Shown: one piece after another, positions 11,952 to 63,323 of the stretch | Layout of the letters: every line of letters begins with the position of its first letter | Numbering within the stretch: position 1 is the first letter of the stretch | Source of the DNA: Pleurocapsa minor HA4230-MV1 | GTDB taxonomy: Bacteria; Cyanobacteriota; Cyanobacteriia; Cyanobacteriales; Xenococcaceae | NCBI GenBank assembly: GCA_019359095.1 | Contig: JAHHHZ010000021.1 | Span: 1 to 64,000 of the forward strand | Direction: 5' to 3' | Length of the DNA stretch: 64,000 bases | Notes under the pieces: generated by a model | What the model was told of the DNA's origin: nothing | Databases searched by the model: none | What the model saw: only the letters and a program-made list of their open reading frames with translations | Made by a program: the position numbers and the translations under genes

Positions 11952-12659
11952 TTAGTTATGCTCAAATTTTTTCCACATACTTGGAGGGGGAGAGAGGAAT
12001 TCATACAACCCAGGATCTCCATTCTCAGCCGAAGTAATCACGATATCAAAAGACAAAGAAATTCTCGTTTCTCCAGTTTGGTTAGCTTCTACACCATGAC
12101 GTTGTTTTGAAGGGAAAATCAACAATCTTCCCTCTGTAGGAGCATAGTATCCTTCTTCATAGTTAAAAGGATTTTTCTTTTTGATGGCATTAGTATGCTC
12201 ATCGCCAATACCTGCGATAATTTCATTCATACCCGCATCGTTGTAAATTGTAAAAGCACCAGATTTAAGCGTGCCACTCTCTGGCACAGATATATAGTAA
12301 ACAGCGCTAACATGAGCAGTATGGTGGCTGTGAGGAGGAATTGCTTGATCTGCGCGGGAAACGACTGGCCAAGCTCTTTGAATATATAAATCTATTTTGC
12401 TAATATCTATTCCCAATTCTTCTAAAAAACGAAGAGTATGAGTTTCTAGTTGTTTAACAATCCAAGCAAAGTTAGGGTCTCGATGAATGTGTCCCGCTCC
12501 ATGAAAATCGCCAGTCCAGGCAATCTCTGGATCGATCCGTTTTTTGTAACTTTCTTTTTCTAGCTTAAGAACGTTAGATACTAAAGAATCTTTTTGCTCT
12601 GCTGCATTTTCTAGATCTGCATAATAGATCGCAAGGGGAAACCAAGGTTCAATAGGCAT
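11952..12659 (-). CDS. 2OG-Fe(II) oxygenase-like protein, last gene of the RiPP operon
   Basis: 235 residues. HSHHTAHVSAVYYI (about 110-123) supplies the HxH-type iron motif and FPSKQRHGVEANQ (about 183-195) the distal His, followed by TRISLSFDI whose Arg would bind 2-oxoglutarate. This is the layout of the putative 2OG-Fe(II) oxygenases that include prolyl hydroxylase-like proteins. It begins 58 bp after the HopA1-domain gene on the same strand, so it is probably co-transcribed with the peptide-modification genes and may hydroxylate or oxidise the peptide. An unrelated role as neighbour cannot be excluded. Confidence 0.75.
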   Translation of the reverse strand: MPIEPWFPLAIYYADLENAAEQKDSLVSNVLKLEKESYKKRIDPEIAWTGDFHGAGHIHRDPNFAWIVKQLETHTLRFLEELGIDISKIDLYIQRAWPVVSRADQAIPPHSHHTAHVSAVYYISVPESGTLKSGAFTIYNDAGMNEIIAGIGDEHTNAIKKKNPFNYEEGYYAPTEGRLLIFPSKQRHGVEANQTGETRISLSFDIVITSAENGDPGLYEFLSPPPSMWKKFEHN

Positions 12660-12717
12660 ATGTCAAATGAAATAATAATTTAATAATTTTTTAGAGAATG
12701 TAAACTTCAACCCAAAT

Positions 12718-13848
12718 CTAGTCAATTTGAGCTTGATAGCTCTTGGTAGAATCAGGATTAAGATAGAGATGTTCGATATCTACCCCCGCTAGAGATAAAT
12801 AATTCCAAACATCAGTTAATTTGTTTTCCGTCAGACCGTCTTCTTGCCATTTTTCGACTAGCGCTGTGGCAATAATGCCACAATAATGTTGACCGATATT
12901 TTCTTGTTCAAATTTTGGCGATCGCGGTTTTTCAGCTAACCCCCAACCTGGAGACAAAGGTAGACAGAAGAAAGGTATCTTTGGGCGAAAATAAGGCTGA
13001 TTTTTTTGCTCAATAGTTTCGACAATTGGATATACTAGCTCAAAATCACTACTCTTGATATCTAAAACGACGGCATCGAGTTCAGCGAAATTTGTCTCAT
13101 CATAGGCAATTTTAAAATTAAAAGGAATTTTGAGAGTATTGAGTTCCCGACTTAGGTGATCCAGCAGCAGCAATGCTCCTTGAGAACTTACATTAAAATA
13201 CATTTGAATAATAAGATCGTCTGAGGAGTCCGCAGCCTTAATCGGGCCAGAGTTGGCGATCGCAATATAAAATCCGCGCTCTACTAAATTGGATGGCATT
13301 TTAATCGCTACTAATTGTCCTGGCTGCAACTGTATCTGCTCTGCCAGATGCTTTTCTGGTTTTATGTGTAAAGTTAAATCGTTTTTGGTTACGTGCCAAT
13401 AGTCAGCTTCTTGTTTAACTACTAGCCAGTTAGGGTCGCTATAACCTTCCCCGTGATTATTTTGCACGAGCTGTTGATAGAATTTTGTTCTCGACCATTT
13501 ATTGACATAATTTGCCACCTCTTGGCGATCGCTAACCTCTTTGGTTGCGGTATTATTGCTAATTTCTAAACTAGAATTTTCTTCTGGCTGAAGGTCAAAA
13601 CTGAAAATACTGTAAAGATAATTTTGTAATTTGGCTGCCAGGTATTGATTGCGCTTTACAGGAGAGATTTGTTTTAAATATTCTTGAAGATGAGACGCAA
13701 TGGTTACAGGTTCGCGATCGCGATAAGTGATCGTTAAATCTGCTGTAATTTGCAGATTTTCGACGATATCTTCAAACTTTTGCGTAAAATTTTCCTGATA
13801 AATTACCAAATCGTCTGGTTTGGTAGGTTTGCTCATTGAAATTGTCAT
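12718..13848 (-). CDS. HopA1-domain protein, candidate lanthipeptide lyase/cyclase
   Basis: 376 residues, soluble. The pattern of a Trp-rich region (DPNWLVVKQEADYWHV), GFYIAIANSGPI, a central MYFNVSSQGALLLLDHL, and a C-terminal IGQHYCGIIATALV matches what I know of the bacterial HopA1-type family. In class V lanthipeptide clusters (lexapeptide, cacaoidin) a HopA1-domain protein acts with an APH-like kinase to turn Ser/Thr into dehydroamino acids. Here it lies 94 bp after such a kinase and downstream of a double-glycine peptide gene. Family call is good; the reaction is inferred. Confidence 0.75.
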   Translation of the reverse strand: MTISMSKPTKPDDLVIYQENFTQKFEDIVENLQITADLTITYRDREPVTIASHLQEYLKQISPVKRNQYLAAKLQNYLYSIFSFDLQPEENSSLEISNNTATKEVSDRQEVANYVNKWSRTKFYQQLVQNNHGEGYSDPNWLVVKQEADYWHVTKNDLTLHIKPEKHLAEQIQLQPGQLVAIKMPSNLVERGFYIAIANSGPIKAADSSDDLIIQMYFNVSSQGALLLLDHLSRELNTLKIPFNFKIAYDETNFAELDAVVLDIKSSDFELVYPIVETIEQKNQPYFRPKIPFFCLPLSPGWGLAEKPRSPKFEQENIGQHYCGIIATALVEKWQEDGLTENKLTDVWNYLSLAGVDIEHLYLNPDSTKSYQAQID

Positions 13849-13942
13849 TTTAAAACTAACACTGTTTTATATGCCTAATGTGAATTACAAATCATAGTGA
13901 TTCATTTTTAGCTATAAGCTATGAGCTTTATTTATGTAGCAT

Positions 13943-15184
13943 CTAAACCATTGCCTGCAAATTCCTGGAAGCTTTGGCAGTGCTGCTATCAATCAACTCC
14001 GCCTCAGTAGCGCCAAAAATAGTGTTAATCGCTTCTTTTGGGGAACAAAGCAAATTCTTAGCTACTTGTAGTTTACAAAGTGCTTCGTTATCGAAAGGAT
14101 GATGATACTCAACGTAGTAGCTCAAGCGATTAATCAGACCAATGCCCGCAAATTGAACTATTCTTCTAATGTAATCGGGGCGATACTCGATAATTTTAGG
14201 AAAAGTAGCCAGGTATCCTTGCAGTAATGCTCTCAGACTCGGGATGATCTTTTCTAAGGGACAGGTAGCTAGACTAAGAGTAGTATGAAGATCGAGGTTA
14301 GAATCGGCAACTAAAGTATTGAGCCATTCTCCTAAATATTGGGATACCAGCATTCCTAAATCCACAGCGGGATCTGCCCAGTAGATAAGTTCCCAATCGA
14401 TTATTTTTACCTGTTCTGGTTTGATTTGAACTAATTCTCGATCGAGATTGAGATTGGCCTTAATAATAAAGTTATCTAAAGTAAGGTCATTATGAGTTAC
14501 ACAAGCTGATTGTATATTGTCATATAGTTCGACGATCGCTTGCTGAAGACTGGGAAACTTTTGATATAACTTATAAAACTCAAGTCCGTCAGGACAAACT
14601 TTGCTAAAAAGATCAGGAGTGACAGTATTTAATTCACGAATAAAGCCAGGGGGTCTAATTGGTCGATCTAATTTGAAGTATTGGCTTAAGAATTTTCGGA
14701 TCTGCGGCTGTTGATAGGTAGCGCGATGAACTTGAGCTAGATTAATACCTATAGTTTGGGCGATTTGGGGATGATAGCTCTGACAAGTTCGATAATAACT
14801 ATCAAGGGCAATATAGTCATCGTAAAAAACTGACACCAGAATCGAGTTATCTCGGTCAAACAAGACTACCTCAGAAATTAGTGGTTGAATGGTCGCTAAA
14901 TTACTAAATTTATTGATTAGTTCTTGAACTAACCATTCGGTAATCAAGTGTCCAGATGTTTTCCCTTCGCGATCGACGCGATTTTGTTTAACTAAAAAGC
15001 TGGCGCGATCGCAATTAGTGCAATCCGAGGAGTCAGGAGAATCATCCTGTGCAGTTCTGACAACTAAATTGAAGTTTTTGCTTTCTTTACAAATTATGGG
15101 AACAGTAGGCTGAAAGTCTGGAGGACAAACATTTTTCTGCTTCAGGAAATCTACCACATTGTTCGCACTTAAAATAAATCCCAT
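13943..15184 (-). CDS. APH-like phosphotransferase, candidate class V lanthipeptide kinase
   Basis: 413 residues. Kinase landmarks are intact: ASFLVKQ with Lys66, the catalytic loop THNDLTLDN (His231, Asp233, Asn238) and the metal-binding VKIIDWE (Asp263) followed by DPAVDLG. This is the aminoglycoside-phosphotransferase/kinase fold. Next to a HopA1-domain gene and a peptide precursor, it probably phosphorylates Ser or Thr of the peptide before elimination, as in class V lanthipeptides. An alternative is phosphorylation of a small molecule. It follows the precursor gene by 207 bp and precedes the HopA1 gene by 94 bp. Confidence 0.8.
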   Translation of the reverse strand: MGFILSANNVVDFLKQKNVCPPDFQPTVPIICKESKNFNLVVRTAQDDSPDSSDCTNCDRASFLVKQNRVDREGKTSGHLITEWLVQELINKFSNLATIQPLISEVVLFDRDNSILVSVFYDDYIALDSYYRTCQSYHPQIAQTIGINLAQVHRATYQQPQIRKFLSQYFKLDRPIRPPGFIRELNTVTPDLFSKVCPDGLEFYKLYQKFPSLQQAIVELYDNIQSACVTHNDLTLDNFIIKANLNLDRELVQIKPEQVKIIDWELIYWADPAVDLGMLVSQYLGEWLNTLVADSNLDLHTTLSLATCPLEKIIPSLRALLQGYLATFPKIIEYRPDYIRRIVQFAGIGLINRLSYYVEYHHPFDNEALCKLQVAKNLLCSPKEAINTIFGATEAELIDSSTAKASRNLQAMV

Positions 15185-15359
15185 AATAAATTTTTTTTAA
15201 TAAGTAAGGTAGCTCTGACACGCCGTCAATAACTCTAAGGTTAAGTCAGTTGACGAGGTATCTTTTAAGCTACCCAATTTAAACTGTGCTTGATTTTTTG
15301 CAAGAAGACAAAAATTTAAGCGATAGTTTCGCAAAGTCGTTAGATATATCCCAACGTTA

Positions 15360-15383
15360 GAGTTACGATTTTATCGATAACTC
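15360..15383 (-). terminator. Hairpin between precursor and kinase genes
   Basis: On the minus strand GAGTTATCGAT and ATCGTAACTC pair over ten positions with one bulged T and a three-base loop. It lies just after the precursor stop codon. No strong T-run follows, so it may be a weak terminator, an mRNA-stabilising end, or a partial attenuator that keeps precursor expression above enzyme expression. Confidence 0.4.
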
Positions 15384-15391
15384 GTTCTAGA

Positions 15392-15610
15392 TTAACAGTG
15401 GTATCTGCTTCCACATCCACATCCATATCCACCTTTGCCTTTGCCTTTGCCTTTGCCTTTGCCTTTTCCTTTTCCTTTTCCGCCGTAACCACCGCCACCA
15501 GAAAGGCTTAATTCTTCTTCAGAAAGAACTCGAAGGTTACCCATAACGCTCTCAGAACCAGATAATAAATCAGCGCCTAGAGGTTGTAGATCGTTAATAT
15601 TGATTCCCAT
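15392..15610 (-). CDS. Double-glycine RiPP precursor with (Gly-Lys)8 core
   Basis: 72 residues. The leader (1-39) has DLLSGSES (14-21) and LRVLSEEELSLSGG (26-39), a typical double-glycine leader cut by C39 peptidases after Gly38-Gly39. The core (about 40-72) starts GGYGG, then eight Lys alternating with Gly (Lys45 to Lys59), then GGYGCGCGSRYHC, with Cys64, Cys66, Ser68, His71 and Cys72. AAAGGT precedes the ATG by about 7 bases. Divergent C39 exporter genes and downstream kinase/HopA1 genes support the role. The core has one Ser and no Thr, so at most one lanthionine is possible. The final structure is unknown. Confidence 0.85.
   Translation of the reverse strand: MGININDLQPLGADLLSGSESVMGNLRVLSEEELSLSGGGGYGGKGKGKGKGKGKGKGKGGYGCGCGSRYHC
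15432..15481. repeat. Hexanucleotide repeat coding for Gly-Lys
   Basis: Eight tandem 6-bp units, GGMAAR on the coding strand, encode the Gly-Lys run of the precursor peptide. The units split into two sub-types (GGAAAA and GGCAAA), consistent with expansion by slippage. Gain or loss of units keeps the reading frame. Confidence 0.9.
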
Positions 15611-16125
15611 TTTTTTTACCTTTATTAATTTGATAATTTTGCTGTGAGTTAATTCCCAAGAAGTAGATGCTGTACATAACTCTTGAGATATTAAATTGAG
15701 GAAGAATAAATTCTCACCTATCTTTGTATCGCAAAATTTTAGTCGAAATTCAGGTAAACAGTAAATAAAAAGACATAAACTACAGCAAACACAAAATTAT
15801 GTCCTATCTATACTCAAGCATTTAACTTAACTATTTAATTGCAGCGCATTAAGTTTAACCACAGCTTCATGATTCTTTAATAACAACATTGTAAAAAATT
15901 TGGGTATGATTCATTAAAGTAAAAATACCTACATAAATTATTTGCTCTTCAAAACCGATGGCGAAAATCAAATCAAATAAACTATTTAAATTAATATTAA
16001 AGTTGTCTTTTCGGCGACTTAATTGTCTTCTTTTTGTCTGTTTACTAGTTAATAGAACTTAGTAATAGCCTAGATCGAATGTTATAAGTAAAACCAAGAA
16101 CCTAAATCATTTTTTATGGAGGGTA
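15611..16125. promoter_or_regulatory. 515-bp divergent promoter region of the RiPP cluster
   Basis: AT-rich region between the leftward precursor operon and the rightward HTH/exporter operon; both promoters must lie here. GGAGGG (16118-16123) is the ribosome binding site of the HTH gene. TGTGAGTTAATTCCCA near 15642 resembles one half of a CRP-type site, which is only suggestive. A 34-codon frame (15958-16062) without a clear ribosome binding site is present. Confidence 0.6.
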
Positions 16126-16701
16126 ATGACTGTAAACGATCAAGCTCAAGACTTAACCAGTATCTTAACTGAGATACTTGCCGAAAAGTCGACTAAAAAC
16201 TTAGACCACAGACATCGTCGTCGCTTAGAAATAATTCTGCGGAGTCATTTAGGTCAATCCCAAGTAGAGATTTGTTCGGCTTTAGGTTGTTCCAAAGATA
16301 TGGCTCGCTATTGGATGGCGATCGCCAAAAAACCGCAAAGCGATTCTTGGCAAGATACCTGTGTTGGTAGACCCAAAAGGGTTAACGATGAATATCTCCA
16401 GCGTCTTCAGGAGTTAGTAACCAGTAGTCCAAAAGATCACGGTTACGCTTTCAAACGTTGGACAGCCAAATGTTTGAGTCAGCACTTAAGCACAGAATTA
16501 GGTATTGAAATTAGCGATCGCCATGTTAATCGGTTACTCAAGCAAATGGGTCTATCGACCAAAAATTCTCAGCACCCTGCAAGTTCCGATGAATCTTCCT
16601 CTAGCAACTCAAAACCAGGACGAATTACGATCCAAGACCTCAATCCAGCTGCCTATTCTCAATTAAATGATTCACTATGGTGGTTTCAAAACCAGATTTA
16701 G
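16126..16701 (+). CDS. HTH-domain protein, probable cluster regulator
   Basis: 191 residues with a strong GGAGGG site 3 bases before the ATG. RRRLEIILRSHLGQSQVEI then ALGCSKDMARYWMA (about 33-67) is a transposase-type winged HTH of the Tc1/IS630 N-terminal kind, followed by a second HTH-like half (about 80-150) with LGIEISDRHVNRLLKQMGL. There is no DDE catalytic domain, so it is not a transposase. Its end overlaps the exporter start by 25 bp, so the two are coupled. The position suggests regulation of peptide export; a domesticated transposase origin is inference. Confidence 0.75.
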   Translation: MTVNDQAQDLTSILTEILAEKSTKNLDHRHRRRLEIILRSHLGQSQVEICSALGCSKDMARYWMAIAKKPQSDSWQDTCVGRPKRVNDEYLQRLQELVTSSPKDHGYAFKRWTAKCLSQHLSTELGIEISDRHVNRLLKQMGLSTKNSQHPASSDESSSSNSKPGRITIQDLNPAAYSQLNDSLWWFQNQI

Positions 16702-19679
16702 ACCCAAAATTTATTCAGCAGTCTTTAAATCATCTTTTATCAGAATCTCAACTTCAGCAATTTTTATCACAATTAGAAATCATTGAGCCAAATCCAGGAG
16801 AACTGTTTTGGCATTTTGACCGCATAGAAGCCGGAATTTACCTAATTTTGACGGGTAAAGCCAGATTAATCGATCATGAAGATAATTTGATTGCTTCGAT
16901 ATCCCAAGGTTGGCTAGGACAAATCGACTTGTTTGTTGAATCTGGTTGGCAACCGTACAGTCTCAGAGCTTCTTTAGGCTTAACGCTAGCTTATTTAGAT
17001 ACTAAATCAGCAAAATTTTGGCTAGAGACTCATCCCCAGCTACAGGAACATATTTATCGCCAGGGAGAAAAATGGGACTTACTGATGTTGTGTCATCAAG
17101 TCAGTGGCTCAAAGTCCGTTGAAGATCTCTTGCCAATCTTGCCGTTATTAGCAACAGAGCAACTAGAGCCAGGCATTTTATCACCTCACTTGGCTGAAAA
17201 GAAGCACTTGTGGCTCCTGCGTCAGGGGGAAATGGTTCACGGTTCGGGTCTAAAGTTAGCCCCAGGTCAACTTTACGATAGAGAATTCTTACCAACCGAG
17301 GGAGAATGGCTAATTACCAAACCCACTCAGCTATATCTTCTGGAAGATAATCTTCCCGAAACAATCAAAGCCAAATCCTCAATCAAAACGCAAAACACTG
17401 GTTCGGCACTTAAAATTGCCCCTCTTCAGACAGTAATTCCTGAAGCACAAGCTGCTCCAGAGACTCAATCGCTGCCCTATTTCCCTAGTCCCACAGTAAA
17501 AATTGCTCATTGGTGGCAACAATCCTCAAGACGTTATCCTTTTCTTAAACAACACAGTAATTCCGATTGTGGAGTGACTTGTTTGGTCATGATTAGCAAA
17601 TATTGGGGTAAAAACTTCAGTATTAACCAATTAAGGGGAGTGGCTAATGTAGATCGTTCAGGAGCTTCCATTAAAGGTTTAATTACTGCCGCCGAATCTG
17701 TCGGCTTTATGGTTAGACCGCGTAAAGCAGATTTATTAGCGCTCCAAAGTCAAGAATTGCCAGCGATCGCCCATTGGGCAGGAAATCACTATGTGGTGGT
17801 TTATCAAGTTACTAAACGGCAAGTAATTATTTCTGATCCCGCGATCGGTAGACGTATTCTCAGTCGCCAAGAGTTTGTCGCTGGTTGGACTGGTTATACT
17901 TTGCTACTGACACCAACAGCCAAGTTTGAACAAGCACCAGAAACAAAGGCAAGTCTCTGGAAATATGGCAAAATACTCCAGCCCTATCAACTAGTTATAC
18001 TCGAAATTTTTGCTGCCTCCTTCATCATTCAAATTGTTGGATTATTTTCGCCTATATTCACCCAAATTTTGTTAGATCGGGTAGTGGTACAACGTAGTGT
18101 CCCCACCTTGATTGCGGTAGGAACGGGTTTGCTCATTTTTAGAATTTTTCAGGTAGTAATTTCGACCCTACGACGTTATTTGCTCTATCACACTGCTAAT
18201 AGGTTAGATTTATCGCTGATTGTCGGATTTATCAGCCATACCTTTAATCTGCCCTTAAACTACTTTGAAACTCGTTATGTCGGCGATATTACTTCCAGAA
18301 TCAACGAAAATCGTAAAATTCGCAGTTTTCTAACGGGAGATGCCATCACTACAGTCTTGGATGTTTTAAGCCTGTTTGTCTATCTTGCTTTAATGTTTTG
18401 GTATAGCTGGAAATTATCTCTATTGACTTTAGTTATCGTACCTATATTTGCCGTGGTAACGGTTTTTGCCACGCCGTTTCTGGTTAGAGTATCTCGTGAA
18501 AGTTTTAATGCCAGTACTAAAGAAAAAAGCTACCTCATTGAAGGTTTGACGGGGATTAGTACGATCAAGTCTATGGGAGTAGAACAGACAGTTAGGTGGC
18601 GTTGGGAAGATTTGATCAATGAGTCAATTCGGATTACTTTTTCGGGACAGATGATTCAAGAACGGGTGGAATTATGTACTTCTTTAATTGAAACCACTAT
18701 TTCTAGCGTGTTATTAATTTTTGGAGTTTGGCAAGTAATTCAAAATCAACTGACTATTGGGCAATTAATTGCTTTTAACATGCTGGTGGCGAATGTAATT
18801 AGCCCGCTCAAAAGGATGATTACCCTGTGGAATAATTTTCAAGAAATTAGAATTGCGATTGAACGTACTGATGATGTCATTAACACCGCAGCTGAGACAG
18901 GATTATCAGGAGAAAATTTAGTTCCTCTGCCACCAATCAAGGGGGAAATTCGGTTTGAAAATGTCACTTTTCGCTACGACTTAGAAAGCCAGACCAATAC
19001 GATTGAAAACCTCAGTTTTGAGATTCAGTCAGGACAAACCATTGCCCTGGTAGGACGCAGTGGTTCGGGCAAAACCACTATTTCTAAACTGTTACTGGGA
19101 CTTTATGCTCCTGTTCAGGGAAAAATTACCATTGACGGCTATGACATTAATAAAATCTCGCTCAAATCCCTCAGACAGCAAACAGGAGTGGTGAATCAAG
19201 ATACATTCTTGTTCGGGGGAACGATTTTAGAAAATCTCACCATTGGTCATCCTAATGCTAGCCAAGGGGCGATCGAAGAAGCTGCTCGTCTGGCTGGAGC
19301 TGCGGACTTTATTGACGAGCTACCCCTCAAATATGGTTCGCAAGTGGGAGAAGGTGGCGGATTACTTTCTGGGGGACAACGGCAACGTTTGGCGATCGCC
19401 CGCGCTTTATTAGGCAAGCCTCGTTTACTAGTTCTCGATGAAGCTACTAGCAATTTGGATGCAGAATCAGAACGAATTATTCAAAATAACTTAAATACTA
19501 TTTTAAAAAATCAAACTACTTTAGTGATTGCTCATCGTCTTTCTACCGTACGCAAGGCAGATTTAATTTTAGTCATGGATCGCGGAGTATTGGTCGAAAG
19601 CGGGACTCATGATGAATTAATGGCTCAACGGGGTCAGTATTTCCATCTTAATCAACAACAGTTAGCGATCGCTAATTAA
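16677..19679 (+). CDS. C39-peptidase ABC exporter with N-terminal cNMP-binding-like domain
   Basis: 1000 residues. Residues about 25-130 resemble a cyclic-nucleotide-binding domain (GIYLILTGKARL, GQIDLF). The C39 peptidase spans about 286-415 with Gln292, Cys298 (HSNSDCGVTCL), His371 and Asp387, all present, so it should cut double-glycine leaders. Membrane helices occupy about 435-725. The ATPase has Walker A GRSGSGKTT (about 791), signature LSGGQRQR (about 896), Walker B LLVLDEAT (about 917) and the H-loop AHR. It exports and trims the neighbouring precursor. The gene overlaps the HTH gene and is followed by the RR-HlyD gene. Confidence 0.93.
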   Translation: MVVSKPDLDPKFIQQSLNHLLSESQLQQFLSQLEIIEPNPGELFWHFDRIEAGIYLILTGKARLIDHEDNLIASISQGWLGQIDLFVESGWQPYSLRASLGLTLAYLDTKSAKFWLETHPQLQEHIYRQGEKWDLLMLCHQVSGSKSVEDLLPILPLLATEQLEPGILSPHLAEKKHLWLLRQGEMVHGSGLKLAPGQLYDREFLPTEGEWLITKPTQLYLLEDNLPETIKAKSSIKTQNTGSALKIAPLQTVIPEAQAAPETQSLPYFPSPTVKIAHWWQQSSRRYPFLKQHSNSDCGVTCLVMISKYWGKNFSINQLRGVANVDRSGASIKGLITAAESVGFMVRPRKADLLALQSQELPAIAHWAGNHYVVVYQVTKRQVIISDPAIGRRILSRQEFVAGWTGYTLLLTPTAKFEQAPETKASLWKYGKILQPYQLVILEIFAASFIIQIVGLFSPIFTQILLDRVVVQRSVPTLIAVGTGLLIFRIFQVVISTLRRYLLYHTANRLDLSLIVGFISHTFNLPLNYFETRYVGDITSRINENRKIRSFLTGDAITTVLDVLSLFVYLALMFWYSWKLSLLTLVIVPIFAVVTVFATPFLVRVSRESFNASTKEKSYLIEGLTGISTIKSMGVEQTVRWRWEDLINESIRITFSGQMIQERVELCTSLIETTISSVLLIFGVWQVIQNQLTIGQLIAFNMLVANVISPLKRMITLWNNFQEIRIAIERTDDVINTAAETGLSGENLVPLPPIKGEIRFENVTFRYDLESQTNTIENLSFEIQSGQTIALVGRSGSGKTTISKLLLGLYAPVQGKITIDGYDINKISLKSLRQQTGVVNQDTFLFGGTILENLTIGHPNASQGAIEEAARLAGAADFIDELPLKYGSQVGEGGGLLSGGQRQRLAIARALLGKPRLLVLDEATSNLDAESERIIQNNLNTILKNQTTLVIAHRLSTVRKADLILVMDRGVLVESGTHDELMAQRGQYFHLNQQQLAIAN

Positions 19680-19717
19680 AATTCCCATAATTATTTGAAT
19701 AAATTGTTAAATTCGCC

Positions 19718-21694
19718 ATGAAACAAATTGAAAACTACACTGCAATTGTTGAGTCTAATCAGCCTAAAGAAATTAAAATTTTGCTGGTAGACGATCAGAG
19801 TTTTGCACGGCGTTTCGTGAGTAAATTAATTGAAACTGCCAATCATCTGAAAATTATCGGCACGGCAGATAATGGTCAAGAGGCGATCGCTTTAGTCGAA
19901 TCACTACAGCCAGATGTGGTTCTAATCGATTTAGAAATGCCCGAAATGGATGGAGTTACCGCCACCGAAATTATTGTTAAGCGTTTTCCTGGCTGTAAAG
20001 TTTTGGTGCTGAGTTCCCACGAAGATGGAGAATATCTCCAAAATGCCCTGTGTGCTGGGGCAACAGGCTACTTACTCAAGGGCAGTTCGGCACAGGAGTT
20101 AACTAACGCTATTACCTCCGTTCGCCAAGGTTATACGCAATTGAGTCCAGGTTTATTGGCAAAAGTTCTTACTCCCAAAGTTGAGATAGTTGTCGATCAA
20201 GAGCAATTGCCACCAGCAGTAACCAGCGAGAGTAACTGGGCAGAATCTACTCGCGAAGGAGTCGAAACCCTACCGCGAGTTTCTTTGCGAGCTTTGCTTT
20301 ATTTGTTGATTGGCTTAACAGTTGTGATGATACCCTGGATAACTTTTGCCAAAGTGGATGAAATTGGTGCGGCCAAGGGCAAATTAGAGCCTCAAGGAAA
20401 AATTGTGAGGCTAGATGCTCCCGTGAGTGGTGCGGTGATGTCCATTGCAGTTCGAGAAGGAGACAAAGTTACCCCAGGACAACAGCTCGTTAAATTAGAG
20501 TCGGAACTGGTTAACGCTGAACTAAGTCAGCAACTACAAAAATTACAGGGACAACAAAATCAACTAAATCAATTACAATTACTCAAAAATCAACAGTCAA
20601 TCTCGCTGCAAACCCAAAAACAGCAAAATCAGGCACAGCAGTTTGAAAAAGAAGCTTTAATCGCTCAAGCCAGAGAAAATCTGTCTTCTCTCAAAGCCAA
20701 CTATGGCAATCAACTAGCGGAAAAACAAGCCCAGATAGAACAAGCTCAAGGTGCAATTAAAGCTAGCCAGTCTGCTCATAAAGTGGCAAAAATTAAATGG
20801 CGCAAAGCGATCGAAAAAGTACCCCGTTATCGAGATGCTTTTGAGCAGGGAGCGTTATCTCAAGATTTATTAGCAGAAGCAGAACAAACCGCCCAAGAAA
20901 GTAGTGAAAATCTCAATCAAACTCAAGCTGAAATTGCTCAGGCTCAATCGCGCTATCAAGAGCAGAATCAGGGTTATAGCAAATTACGTCAGCAAACAGC
21001 AGGAGAAATTGACCAAGCTGCTTTACGTTATCAAGAACAGCAACGAGGTTTGCAATCTTTGGTCGAGGCTAATAATCTAGCGGGATTAAAAATTATCGAA
21101 GAATTAAAAAATACTGAATCTCAAGTTATTACCCTCAAAGGAGAAATTGCTCAAACCGAAAGTTTGATTAAAGGTTTAAATTATCAATTGCAGCAACGGA
21201 CGATTTATGCTCCTGTCGAAGGTACAGTTTTTGAATTACCGATCGCTAAACCAGGTGCGGTGGTGCAGCCAGGACAAACAATCGCCCAAATTGCTCCTAA
21301 AAATGTGCCATTAGTTTTACGTGCCAGAATGAGTAGTAACGAGAGCGGGTTTCTCAAAGTGGGCTTACCTGTAAAACTTAAGTTTGATGCCTATCCATTT
21401 CAAGACTATGGTATTGTGCCTGGTCGTTTAACTTGGATTTCTCCTGATTCGAGAGTTAAGCCGAGTTCTAGTTCATCTTCATCGACAGATAATACGTCTG
21501 AATCTAATCAGCCTGGAGAATTTTACGAACTAGAGATTGAATTAACCCAAAATTATATTCAGCATGGCGATCGCCGAGTTCTGTTGACTCCAGGACAGAC
21601 TGCTGCTGCTGAAATTGTCATTCGTCAACGTCGTTTAGCGGATATTTTTCTCGCTCCATTTAAAAGTTTAAAAAAGGGTGGTATTCAGCTTTAA
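19718..21694 (+). CDS. Response-regulator receiver fused to HlyD-type membrane fusion protein
   Basis: 658 residues. Residues 19-130 are a receiver domain with all key residues: Asp25-Asp26, phospho-acceptor Asp71 (LIDLEMPEMDG), Ser99-Ser100 and Lys121. A membrane span at about 190-211 follows, then HlyD: a first lipoyl half (about 220-262), a long Gln-rich coiled coil (about 263-495), the second lipoyl half (YAPVEGTVFELPIAKPG) and a beta-barrel end. The receiver would sit in the cytoplasm and the adaptor in the periplasm, pairing with the ABC exporter. No output DNA-binding domain and no histidine kinase gene is next to it. The fusion suggests phosphorylation-controlled export. Confidence 0.9.
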   Translation: MKQIENYTAIVESNQPKEIKILLVDDQSFARRFVSKLIETANHLKIIGTADNGQEAIALVESLQPDVVLIDLEMPEMDGVTATEIIVKRFPGCKVLVLSSHEDGEYLQNALCAGATGYLLKGSSAQELTNAITSVRQGYTQLSPGLLAKVLTPKVEIVVDQEQLPPAVTSESNWAESTREGVETLPRVSLRALLYLLIGLTVVMIPWITFAKVDEIGAAKGKLEPQGKIVRLDAPVSGAVMSIAVREGDKVTPGQQLVKLESELVNAELSQQLQKLQGQQNQLNQLQLLKNQQSISLQTQKQQNQAQQFEKEALIAQARENLSSLKANYGNQLAEKQAQIEQAQGAIKASQSAHKVAKIKWRKAIEKVPRYRDAFEQGALSQDLLAEAEQTAQESSENLNQTQAEIAQAQSRYQEQNQGYSKLRQQTAGEIDQAALRYQEQQRGLQSLVEANNLAGLKIIEELKNTESQVITLKGEIAQTESLIKGLNYQLQQRTIYAPVEGTVFELPIAKPGAVVQPGQTIAQIAPKNVPLVLRARMSSNESGFLKVGLPVKLKFDAYPFQDYGIVPGRLTWISPDSRVKPSSSSSSSTDNTSESNQPGEFYELEIELTQNYIQHGDRRVLLTPGQTAAAEIVIRQRRLADIFLAPFKSLKKGGIQL

Positions 21695-21724
21695 TAGACC
21701 AAGAGTCTTTAAATTGAACTGAGA

Positions 21725-22444
21725 ATGCCAGAACAGATCCCGATTAGCCCAGAGGAAATTATTCAACAAATAAAGTTTTCTCGTCTAATGCCTAAAATTT
21801 CCCAAGAAATTGCGAGGCGGAAAATTATTAGCGAAACTGCTAAAGCCCAAAATATTATCCTCAGTGAATTAGAAATACAGCAAGCAGCAGACAGTTTTCG
21901 CCTGAAAAATAACCTTTCTAGTTCTCAGGCGACTTTAGATTGGCTAGAAAAATATGGTTTATCGATTGAGGAATTTGAACAACTTATCTATGACAATTCC
22001 CTCTCGTTAAAATTAGCTCAACATTTATATAGCGATCGCGTTGAATCATATTTTTATGAACATCAGCTAGATTATACCAAAGCGACAATTCATGAAGTAA
22101 TTCTCCCCAACTTCGACTTGGGAATGGAACTTTTCTATGGAATTCAAGAACAAGAATTTAGTTTCTGGGATGTCGCCCATCAATATATTCAAGAACCAGA
22201 ATTACGTTATCGTGGGGGCTATCGAGGCTGTTTAAAAAGAAATGAATTCAAGCCAGCAGTTTCTATGGCAGTATTCGCTGCTCATCCCCCACAAGTTCTT
22301 AAGCCAATTGTCATTGATAAGCAAACATATCTAATTTTTGTTTCGGAAATTATTCAACCAAAACTAGATAGCGAAATGCGTTATCTAATTATTACTGATT
22401 TGTTTAACCAATGGCTCCAAGAACAAATAAAACAAATACTCTAG
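21725..22444 (+). CDS. Parvulin-type peptidylprolyl isomerase of the export operon
   Basis: 239 residues. The N-terminal half is helical like the SurA/PrsA N-domain (QIARRKIISETAKAQNI, LDWLEKYGLSIEEFEQLI). The C-terminal part (about 118-215) resembles a parvulin domain (ATIHEVILPN, LRYRGGYRGCLKRNE, VLKPIVIDKQTYLIFVSEI). There is no signal peptide, so it would act in the cytoplasm unless exported otherwise. Last gene of the rightward operon; such isomerases accompany C39 exporters in other cyanobacterial bacteriocin clusters and may fold or hold the peptide for export. Confidence 0.78.
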   Translation: MPEQIPISPEEIIQQIKFSRLMPKISQEIARRKIISETAKAQNIILSELEIQQAADSFRLKNNLSSSQATLDWLEKYGLSIEEFEQLIYDNSLSLKLAQHLYSDRVESYFYEHQLDYTKATIHEVILPNFDLGMELFYGIQEQEFSFWDVAHQYIQEPELRYRGGYRGCLKRNEFKPAVSMAVFAAHPPQVLKPIVIDKQTYLIFVSEIIQPKLDSEMRYLIITDLFNQWLQEQIKQIL

Positions 22445-61940: not shown

Positions 61941-63323
61941 ATGAAGCTGACCTATCAATATAAATTACGACCAACCAAAGAGCAAAATGCCACCATGATT
62001 GAGTGGTTGAATCTTCTTCGTCGTCAATATAACTATCGATTAGGTCAGCGTTTTAGTTGGTGGCAAGAAACCAGAACTCCTGTTAATTCATGTCCTCTAA
62101 ATGTTTCTCTAGTTTCCGTAAATAGGATTTACCAAGACATACCTGAGTTTCGAGTTCAGGTTAGGGATGGCAGAAAATTGGGTGATGATGGACTTCCAAT
62201 TACTCAAAAAGGAGATAAACACCCCAATATTGTTGGTGGTTATGTCCAATGGCAAACGGTTCAACTAGGAGACTTAAAAAACACCAAAAAATTATTTCCT
62301 GAGTACAAAAAGATTCACTCACAAGTCTTACAGGATGTAATTAATAGGGTTGAGACTGCATTCTCAAACTTTATTACTCCAGACAAGAATGGCAATCGTG
62401 CAGGTAAACCAAAATTCAAAGGATTACATTATTACAAGTCATTCACCTATTCTCAGTTGAGAAATAAACACATATTAAATAATTACGTAGATTTATCTGG
62501 TATTGGTCAGGTTGAGTTGTTTCAACATCGTCCAATTCCTACTGGATTCGTAGTTAAGTTGGGAACAGTTAAATTAGAAGCCGATGGCTGGTATTTATCA
62601 TTAGCTCTCGAAGATCAAACTGTTCCGATTAAAGAGGATGAAGCAATTTGTCCCACTAAAGAAAACAGTTGTGCAATTGATATTGGACTAGAGCGATTCT
62701 TAACTTGTGATGATGGGACTTATATTGAAATTCCCAAATTTTTGAGAAAGGCAGCCGATAGATTAGCTCGATTACAAAGAGCCAAATCCAAGCACCAGTT
62801 GGCAAGTAAAGACAAAAAAAGGTTGTATTCGGCTATAGCCAAATTACATCAAAAAATAGCAAGACAAAGGCAAAATTTTCACTTGAAGATTGCTTATTGG
62901 TTGTTCTCAAAGGCTGATGTTGTTTTTATTGAAGACTTGAAGCTAAAAAATTTAATTAGAAGAAACAAGTCTAAGCCTGATGGCAAAGGTGGTTTTCTGC
63001 CAAACAATCAATCTCAAAGCTCTGGAATGAACAAATCCTGGCTCGATGCTGGGCATTCGAGCTTTTTTCAGATACTAGAATGGGTAGCTTGGAAACTTGG
63101 CAAACGAGTCCTCAAAGTCAATCCTTGGGGAACATCGCAGCATTGTTACGCCTGTCTAAACAAAGTGCCAAAATCCTTATCTGACCGATGGCATTCTTGC
63201 TCGTGCGGTGCGGAGCTAAATCGCGATGAAAATTCAGCCAAACTGCAAAAATTATTGGGGCTGGAACTTGCCTCAATCAAAACTGCCCCACCGAGGGAAA
63301 GAGGCTCGCTCTGTACCCGATAG
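61941..63323 (+). CDS. tnpB: TnpB RNA-guided nuclease
   Basis: 460 residues. The N-terminal MKLTYQYKLRPTKEQ is the family start. The RuvC active site is complete: Asp247 in AIDIGLERFLT, Glu331 in VVFIEDLKLKNL and Asp429 in ELNRDENSA, with the zinc finger Cys402, Cys405, Cys420 and Cys422. It should be an active omega-RNA-guided DNA nuclease like TnpB of ISDra2. The stop codon lies inside the loop of a hairpin at the right end. No tnpA is next to it. Confidence 0.93.
   Translation: MKLTYQYKLRPTKEQNATMIEWLNLLRRQYNYRLGQRFSWWQETRTPVNSCPLNVSLVSVNRIYQDIPEFRVQVRDGRKLGDDGLPITQKGDKHPNIVGGYVQWQTVQLGDLKNTKKLFPEYKKIHSQVLQDVINRVETAFSNFITPDKNGNRAGKPKFKGLHYYKSFTYSQLRNKHILNNYVDLSGIGQVELFQHRPIPTGFVVKLGTVKLEADGWYLSLALEDQTVPIKEDEAICPTKENSCAIDIGLERFLTCDDGTYIEIPKFLRKAADRLARLQRAKSKHQLASKDKKRLYSAIAKLHQKIARQRQNFHLKIAYWLFSKADVVFIEDLKLKNLIRRNKSKPDGKGGFLPNNQSQSSGMNKSWLDAGHSSFFQILEWVAWKLGKRVLKVNPWGTSQHCYACLNKVPKSLSDRWHSCSCGAELNRDENSAKLQKLLGLELASIKTAPPRERGSLCTR

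Follow-up and report, generated by a model that had tools for sequence, protein, structure and literature searches.

Eyles et al. 2021 have catalogued 1,340 HopA1 proteins, 96% of which adjoin a phosphotransferase (PMC8153245), and the main text of their paper describes a Family 1A of 570 peptides from 183 cyanobacterial biosynthetic gene clusters (BGCs), in which the leader is of the double-glycine type and no Ser, Thr or Cys is conserved in the cores. In the text of Liang et al. 2022 (PMC9486802), the type-B HopA1 BGCs are all cyanobacterial, and the pairing of a kinase with a HopA1 protein is proposed as a handle for discovering class V lanthipeptides. We have analyzed such a pair in a 64,000-nt stretch of DNA from the cyanobacterium Pleurocapsa minor HA4230-MV1 (GCA_019359095.1, contig JAHHHZ010000021.1, positions 1-64,000 of the forward strand; hereafter the window), where it is part of a gene cluster for a ribosomally synthesized and post-translationally modified peptide (RiPP). 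HopA1/kinase clusters with double-glycine leaders are already known in cyanobacteria; what is different here is a Gly-Lys repeat core, (GK)n, and a 2-oxoglutarate/Fe(II) (2OG) oxygenase gene. The original prediction that this combination was not described stands, within the literature searched, for the (GK)n core and the gene set, but not for the general combination, which the two papers cover in their main texts. Its further claim of a class V lanthipeptide product is not supported, given altered lyase residues, an orthologous core (locus L041) devoid of Ser, Thr and Cys, and no cyclase found. Our own reading, which we put forward tentatively and at somewhat less than even chance, is that the window carries a kinase/HopA1 cluster of the cyanobacterial type in which dehydration may have been abandoned and which may yield a zwitterionic phospho-peptide.

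The precursor gene (15392..15610, minus strand) encodes 72 residues, with a leader ending in ..SEEELSLSGG and a Gly-Lys-rich core with a CGCG..C tail. Correcting the earlier description, the core holds one Ser and zero Thr, together with three Cys and no Asp or Glu. The precursor is single in the genome by a precursor profile search and had no family match in Pfam and NCBIfam scans; a cyanobacterial leader profile, in which the window leader is itself 1 of 18 rows, gives this leader 51.4 bits. The whole 2OG-bearing cluster recurs in the orthologous loci L039/L040 (G002, a genome in the same genus group) and L041 (G018), where the precursor gene and its place are conserved and the peptide is 94% and 77% identical to that of the window, respectively. 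Conservation of gene and place, together with synonymous differences in the GK codons among the orthologues, indicates that the precursor is no chance open reading frame (ORF), and the same synonymous Gly/Lys codon differences rule out pure DNA slippage as the origin of the repeat. Identities to the window for the modifying enzymes, in the same order of loci, are 97% and 80% for the 2OG enzyme, 90% and 69% for the kinase and 81% and 59% for the HopA1 protein. All three 2OG-bearing loci have (GK)n cores. The core of L040 has one Ser and two Cys, and that of L041 consists entirely of Lys/Arg (24), Gly (25), Tyr (4) and His (1); lacking Ser, Thr and Cys, it cannot form a lanthionine, and the window core, with its single Ser and three Cys, can form one at most.

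The next relatives, L042, L043 and L057, have no 2OG gene and display Ser-rich cores. Taking the most basic core where a locus had several precursors, we found 15 basic repeat cores, all free of Asp and Glu and with 6 to 24 Lys plus Arg; 12 of the 15 are rich in Ser/Thr, of the (KS)n or (RS)n type. Ser plus Thr per core numbered 0, 1 and 1 in the loci with the 2OG gene (n=3) vs. 5 to 12 in those without it (n=12). Close to the C-terminus, the precursors of the window, L040, L042, L043 and L171 share a CGCG motif across two orders, while that of L041 ends in YRYYYH. Cores of (RS)n and (RT)n type also adjoin a kinase and a HopA1 gene at L132:8035 onward (G052) and at L050:7273-7434 (G068), a pattern reminiscent of eukaryotic SR proteins with their Arg-Ser repeats.

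The HopA1-domain (LanY-like) protein of 376 aa (12718..13848, minus strand; PF17914, E 5.4e-46) is single in the genome, and its structure model (mean pLDDT 79.5) has the LxmY fold, with LxmY (9dk1_B, E 3.4e-16) as the best match in the PDB, followed by Pseudomonas HopA1 and class III synthetases. At six active-site positions (215/246/256/263/321/322), of which 321 and 322 were added for their conservation and are not taken from PMC9486802, the window protein reads QKEDHY vs. RKRYHR in LxmY. According to PMC9486802, elimination by CaoY is blocked when R187 or K219 is replaced by Ala, and the R229Q variant works inefficiently. Mapped by residue spacing, CaoY R187, K219, R229 and Y236 would correspond to Q215, K246, E256 and D263 of the window, with one of the four kept. 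Gln215 and Asp263 are common to the three orthologues; Lys246 is kept in the window and L041 and is Arg in L039/L040.

To place these residues we used a table of 76 HopA1 proteins (81 profile matches minus 5 short or partial ones), drawn from a search for relatives and from loci chosen, blind to the lyase residues, where a basic-repeat precursor profile matched; with loci partly chosen in this way, the 15 of 76 with repeat cores give no estimate of frequency. Arg215 occurs in none of the 15 repeat-core loci vs. 51 of the 61 others (10 of the 61 lack it; Fisher p 1.2e-9, ancestry ignored), and Tyr263 in 2 of 15 vs. 48 of 61; 12 of the 61 non-repeat rows had no precursor detected. As 25 of the 76 cyanobacterial proteins lack the Arg matching CaoY R187, the kinase and HopA1 pair alone may mislead as a marker. 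The residues found at 215 in repeat loci are Q, N, D, E, K, S and Y. On average, the five active-site columns are kept in 0.29 of the repeat-core proteins vs. 0.68 for all 107 columns conserved in the 51 Arg-bearing proteins, and in a column permutation test with these 51 as the reference this gave p 0.0018, or 0.018 without column 215. The L135 protein, one of the repeat-core set, has diverged strongly (end branch 3.97), and the placing of its residues in columns is uncertain. Within the Arg-bearing part of the tree, L045, beside L059, has both a (KS)n core and Ser215. Two G601 clusters from another order, which stand outside all counts, have Asn215 and Ala or Asn in place of Lys246, and one of them has a Lys/Ser repeat core and a CGCG tail. 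The neighborhood differs as well: among loci with room to judge, a gene for an aldo/keto-reductase-like protein, with just a trace NCBIfam match to a reductase family, lies by HopA1 in 20 of 40 with the full RKRY[NH]R set, but in none of the 13 repeat loci, the 7 remaining loci that lack Arg215 or the 5 that keep Arg215 and lack Lys246. If it is a reductase, it would fit a step following dehydration.

The APH-type (LanK-like) kinase of 413 aa (13943..15184, minus strand) matches PF01636 over the cut-off (E 3.2e-6), the NCBIfam LxmK family NF038156 at 67.8 bits (E 8.5e-19; far under its cut-off of 315) and the LxmK chain 9dk1_A (E 0.0014). With NF038156, PF17914 and the fold match to 9dk1_B, the predicted homology of the kinase and the HopA1 protein to the class V pair held. 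The kinase motifs THNDLTLDN and IIDWE are intact in the window, and H.D....N and IDWE motifs are present in 14 of 14 repeat clusters with a kinase found (for the one remaining, L135, the fetched stretch holds no kinase). Decay of the whole pair looks different, since both partners are degenerate in the second copy of L054 (L054:8202-10497), in L066:5083-7365 and in L145:389-2737, unlike in the window.

The 2OG oxygenase (11952..12659, minus strand; PF13759, E 6.9e-22; TIGR02466, 100.5 bits, cut-off 62.5) has H110, H112, H188 and R199 invariant in 13 of 13 aligned relatives, with H-x-H instead of the usual H-x-D, as in the solved structures 3bvc and 2rg4; these are also the best fold matches of its model (pLDDT 76), followed by SyrB2 and prolyl hydroxylases. 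Its gene is found in 3 of the 76 tabulated HopA1 rows, all of them (GK)n loci. The gene does not invariably accompany such peptides: other cyanobacteria have close relatives of it (53 to 61% identity) outside clusters of this kind. At E 1e-10 or better, matches occur in 19 of the 388 genomes from the order, and at 1e-30 or better in 31 of the 386 from the phylum, 27 of these 31 belonging to one family of small genomes. A regex search of the ~1.5-kb flanks of 26 loci with such relatives disclosed no basic-repeat ORF.

To gauge constraint, we compared seven genes between the window and L039, leaving out the receiver-HlyD gene, which is split in L039. The dN/dS values were 0.054 for the 2OG gene, 0.063 for the HTH gene, 0.09 for the precursor, 0.093 for the ABC exporter, 0.119 for the parvulin-like gene, 0.224 for the kinase and 0.38 for HopA1. 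Between the window and L041, where dS is near saturation, they were 0.097 (2OG), 0.10 (ABC), 0.113 (kinase), 0.164 (precursor), 0.194 (HopA1), 0.218 (parvulin-like) and 0.286 (HTH). The dS between window and L039 also differs by operon: the genes of the three modifying enzymes lie at 0.25 to 0.27, vs. 0.63 to 0.69 for the HTH, ABC and parvulin-like genes, a gap that may reflect recombination or transfer of the left operon.

The kinase is intact, the lyase altered, Ser is lost where the oxygenase is gained, and the basic cores are free of acidic residues; together, these traits suit a peptide phosphorylated on Ser/Thr or on hydroxylysine. We infer the chemical steps, including the residue hydroxylated, the retention of phosphate and the function, as follows. 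The kinase-HopA1 pair would bind the leader, as proposed for LxmKY; the 2OG oxygenase would hydroxylate Lys in the Gly-Lys repeat (the L041 core offers Gly, Lys, Arg, Tyr and His as choices, and we surmise Lys to be the target); the kinase would then add phosphate to the lysine-borne hydroxyls; HopA1, its phospho-lyase site remodelled or lost, would stay as a structural partner, so that phosphate is not eliminated; and the C39 exporter would cleave after the Gly-Gly of the leader, with export via the HlyD adaptor. In relatives without the 2OG gene, the Ser/Thr of the (KS)n or (RS)n cores would serve as phospho-acceptors. A bolder extension, that these clusters are a bacterial counterpart of diatom silaffins in which a lyase-freed kinase phosphorylates Ser/Thr repeats or 2OG-hydroxylated Lys to give an exported zwitterionic molecule, a polymer-like matrix or a mineral binder, is possible but rather doubtful; the function itself, perhaps mineral binding or adhesion, is a guess.

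Several observations weigh against the phospho-peptide reading. As the three 2OG loci form one clade (support 100), the gain of the 2OG gene with the (GK)n core counts as one event. The tree needs two changes for Arg215 and five for repeat cores, and an independent-pairs test finds no significant link (median p 1), so the contrast of 15 vs. 61 loci is largely one of lineage; many separate lyase losses accompanying repeat cores are thus not shown by these data. The column test weakens to p 0.011, or 0.064 without column 215, once the reference is widened to all 61 non-repeat proteins. HopA1 is not the least constrained gene in the comparison with L041, where the HTH and parvulin-like genes are higher, and the closest solved structures of the 2OG enzyme, 3bvc and 2rg4, are uncharacterised proteins. 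Finally, purifying selection on HopA1 (dN/dS below 1), the keeping of Lys246 and the shared Gln215/Asp263 would allow for a new activity.

This last point leads to a rival scheme in which HopA1 has acquired a new active site, with Lys being hydroxylated (e.g., at the beta carbon) and phosphorylated and the phosphate then eliminated to yield dehydro-lysine or a lysine-derived cross-link. Retention of HopA1 under selection (dN/dS 0.38 and 0.19), Gln215/Asp263 in the three orthologues and Lys246 (Arg in L039) speak for this scheme, but arginines 215, 256 and 322 are absent from the window protein, and the free variation at 215 across repeat loci points to relaxed constraint more than to a new conserved site; we consider it unlikely. 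We find a purely oxidised product, rich in hydroxylysine or oxidised in another way, similarly improbable; the kinase and HopA1 would then act elsewhere (e.g., on Tyr or the leader) or be vestigial. Such a peptide would be in keeping with the window-L039 comparison, in which the 2OG gene is the most constrained (0.054) and the kinase and HopA1 genes the least (0.224 and 0.38), but it is at odds with the intact kinase motifs in the three GK clusters and with a kinase still 69% identical in L041.

A class V lanthipeptide or simple dehydrated peptide, with Ser dehydrated and Cys added to form one thioether ring in the GCGCGSRYHC tail, seems to us very unlikely. The homologous enzyme pair and fold, the one Ser and three Cys of the window tail and the kept Lys246 are what one would expect of it. 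However, the lyase positions are altered, L041 has the same gene set with a core lacking Ser, Thr and Cys, and this reading offers no explanation for the 2OG gene or the extended GK repeat; in addition, Pfam scans of the 8 cluster and 10 flanking proteins found neither LanC nor a second APH-like protein (LanX) that might serve as cyclase, with no genome-wide APH search made. The sole LanC match in the genome, a 1118-aa frame on another contig, was rejected as the cyclase, probably being a separate LanM-type gene. This frame lies ~9 kb from a C39 transporter (G000:C19:211784-212836, C19:221885-222268), probably marking a separate class II lanthipeptide locus. All in all, a differently decorated, perhaps phosphorylated, charged peptide is more likely than a thioether.

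The eight ORFs lie at the positions and on the strands originally predicted, in two facing operons, and family matches bear out a complete RiPP-type cluster with a double-glycine leader and a C39 exporter; judged by such matches, there is no doubt about the families of the 2OG oxygenase, the HopA1 protein, the C39 exporter and the receiver (REC)-HlyD fusion. The two divergent operons are separated by an intergenic region (15611..16125, no strand) in which promoter-like sites were no commoner than in shuffled sequence. The rightward operon begins with a helix-turn-helix (HTH) protein, a probable regulator (16126..16701, plus strand). Its likeness is to IS630-type transposases, over their N-terminal half (NF033545, 71.1 bits, cut-off of 100 not reached); family scans found no DDE domain in it, and it is possibly a regulator of domesticated origin. 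The C39-peptidase ABC exporter of 1000 aa follows (16677..19679, plus strand; PF03412, E 5.3e-41), with an N-terminal extension bearing a weak likeness to a cyclic-nucleotide-binding domain (12.6 bits, below cut-off), and then the 658-aa fusion of a receiver domain with an HlyD adaptor (19718..21694, plus strand; REC PF00072, E 1.1e-26; HlyD PF13437, E 1e-19). At L039:1188-3178, in a metagenome-assembled genome, REC and HlyD lie in two separate ORFs vs. fused in the window, through either a gene split or a frameshift. The operon ends with a parvulin-like protein (21725..22444, plus strand) that scores 64.3 bits against TIGR04500, below its cut-off of 180, as are its Pfam rotamase matches. Away from the cluster, window positions 61941-63323 encode an IS605 OrfB/TnpB-type protein with a Cas12f1-like TNB domain.

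Compared with Family 1A and the type-B BGCs, the cluster shares side-by-side kinase and HopA1 genes, a cyanobacterial host, a double-glycine leader and variable cores, but it differs from both, as their main texts describe them, in the (GK)n core and the TIGR02466 2OG gene within the operon. The text of Eyles 2021 and Liang 2022 that we consulted, supplements excluded, makes no mention of lysine repeats or altered lyase residues, and the word "lysine" is absent from the main text of the former. Open-access literature, supplements aside, on phosphorylated RiPPs, hydroxylysine and HopA1 in RiPPs likewise disclosed nothing that we recognised as this cluster type. With the class V lanthipeptides lexapeptide (LxmKY) and cacaoidin (CaoKY), as presented in the text of PMC12141560 and PMC9486802, the window has in common a homologous kinase and a lyase-fold protein, but its lyase positions are altered, its core is almost without Ser/Thr and the scans of the cluster turned up no cyclase.

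A phosphate group on a RiPP has a precedent in Bacillota, whose linear polyphosphorylated peptides (LPPs; Nat Commun 2026, PMC13381572) are phosphorylated RiPPs too. The likeness to them lies in a linear RiPP intermediate with phosphate, predicted in our case, and in export genes, whereas LPPs involve an HprK-like kinase, a RiPP recognition element (RRE), a SipW-like signal peptidase and multiple phosphates on one Ser; an HprK-like kinase, a discrete RRE and a SipW-like peptidase had no match among the eight cluster proteins. If the bolder extension holds, this would be a RiPP kind in which an oxygenase creates the acceptor for the kinase. The predicted product chemistry, that of a zwitterionic phospho-peptide, would resemble diatom silaffins, which are described in the text of PMC4557024 as Lys-rich and zwitterionic, with phospho-Ser and phosphorylated delta-hydroxy-trimethyllysine. 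The comparison is one of analogy only, silaffins being eukaryotic, non-homologous and made by other enzymes, and the modifications here being predicted from genes; if the bolder extension holds, these clusters would be a bacterial source, simple in genetic terms, of repeat peptides bearing phospho-hydroxylysine or phosphoserine, comparable to those used in biomineral formation.

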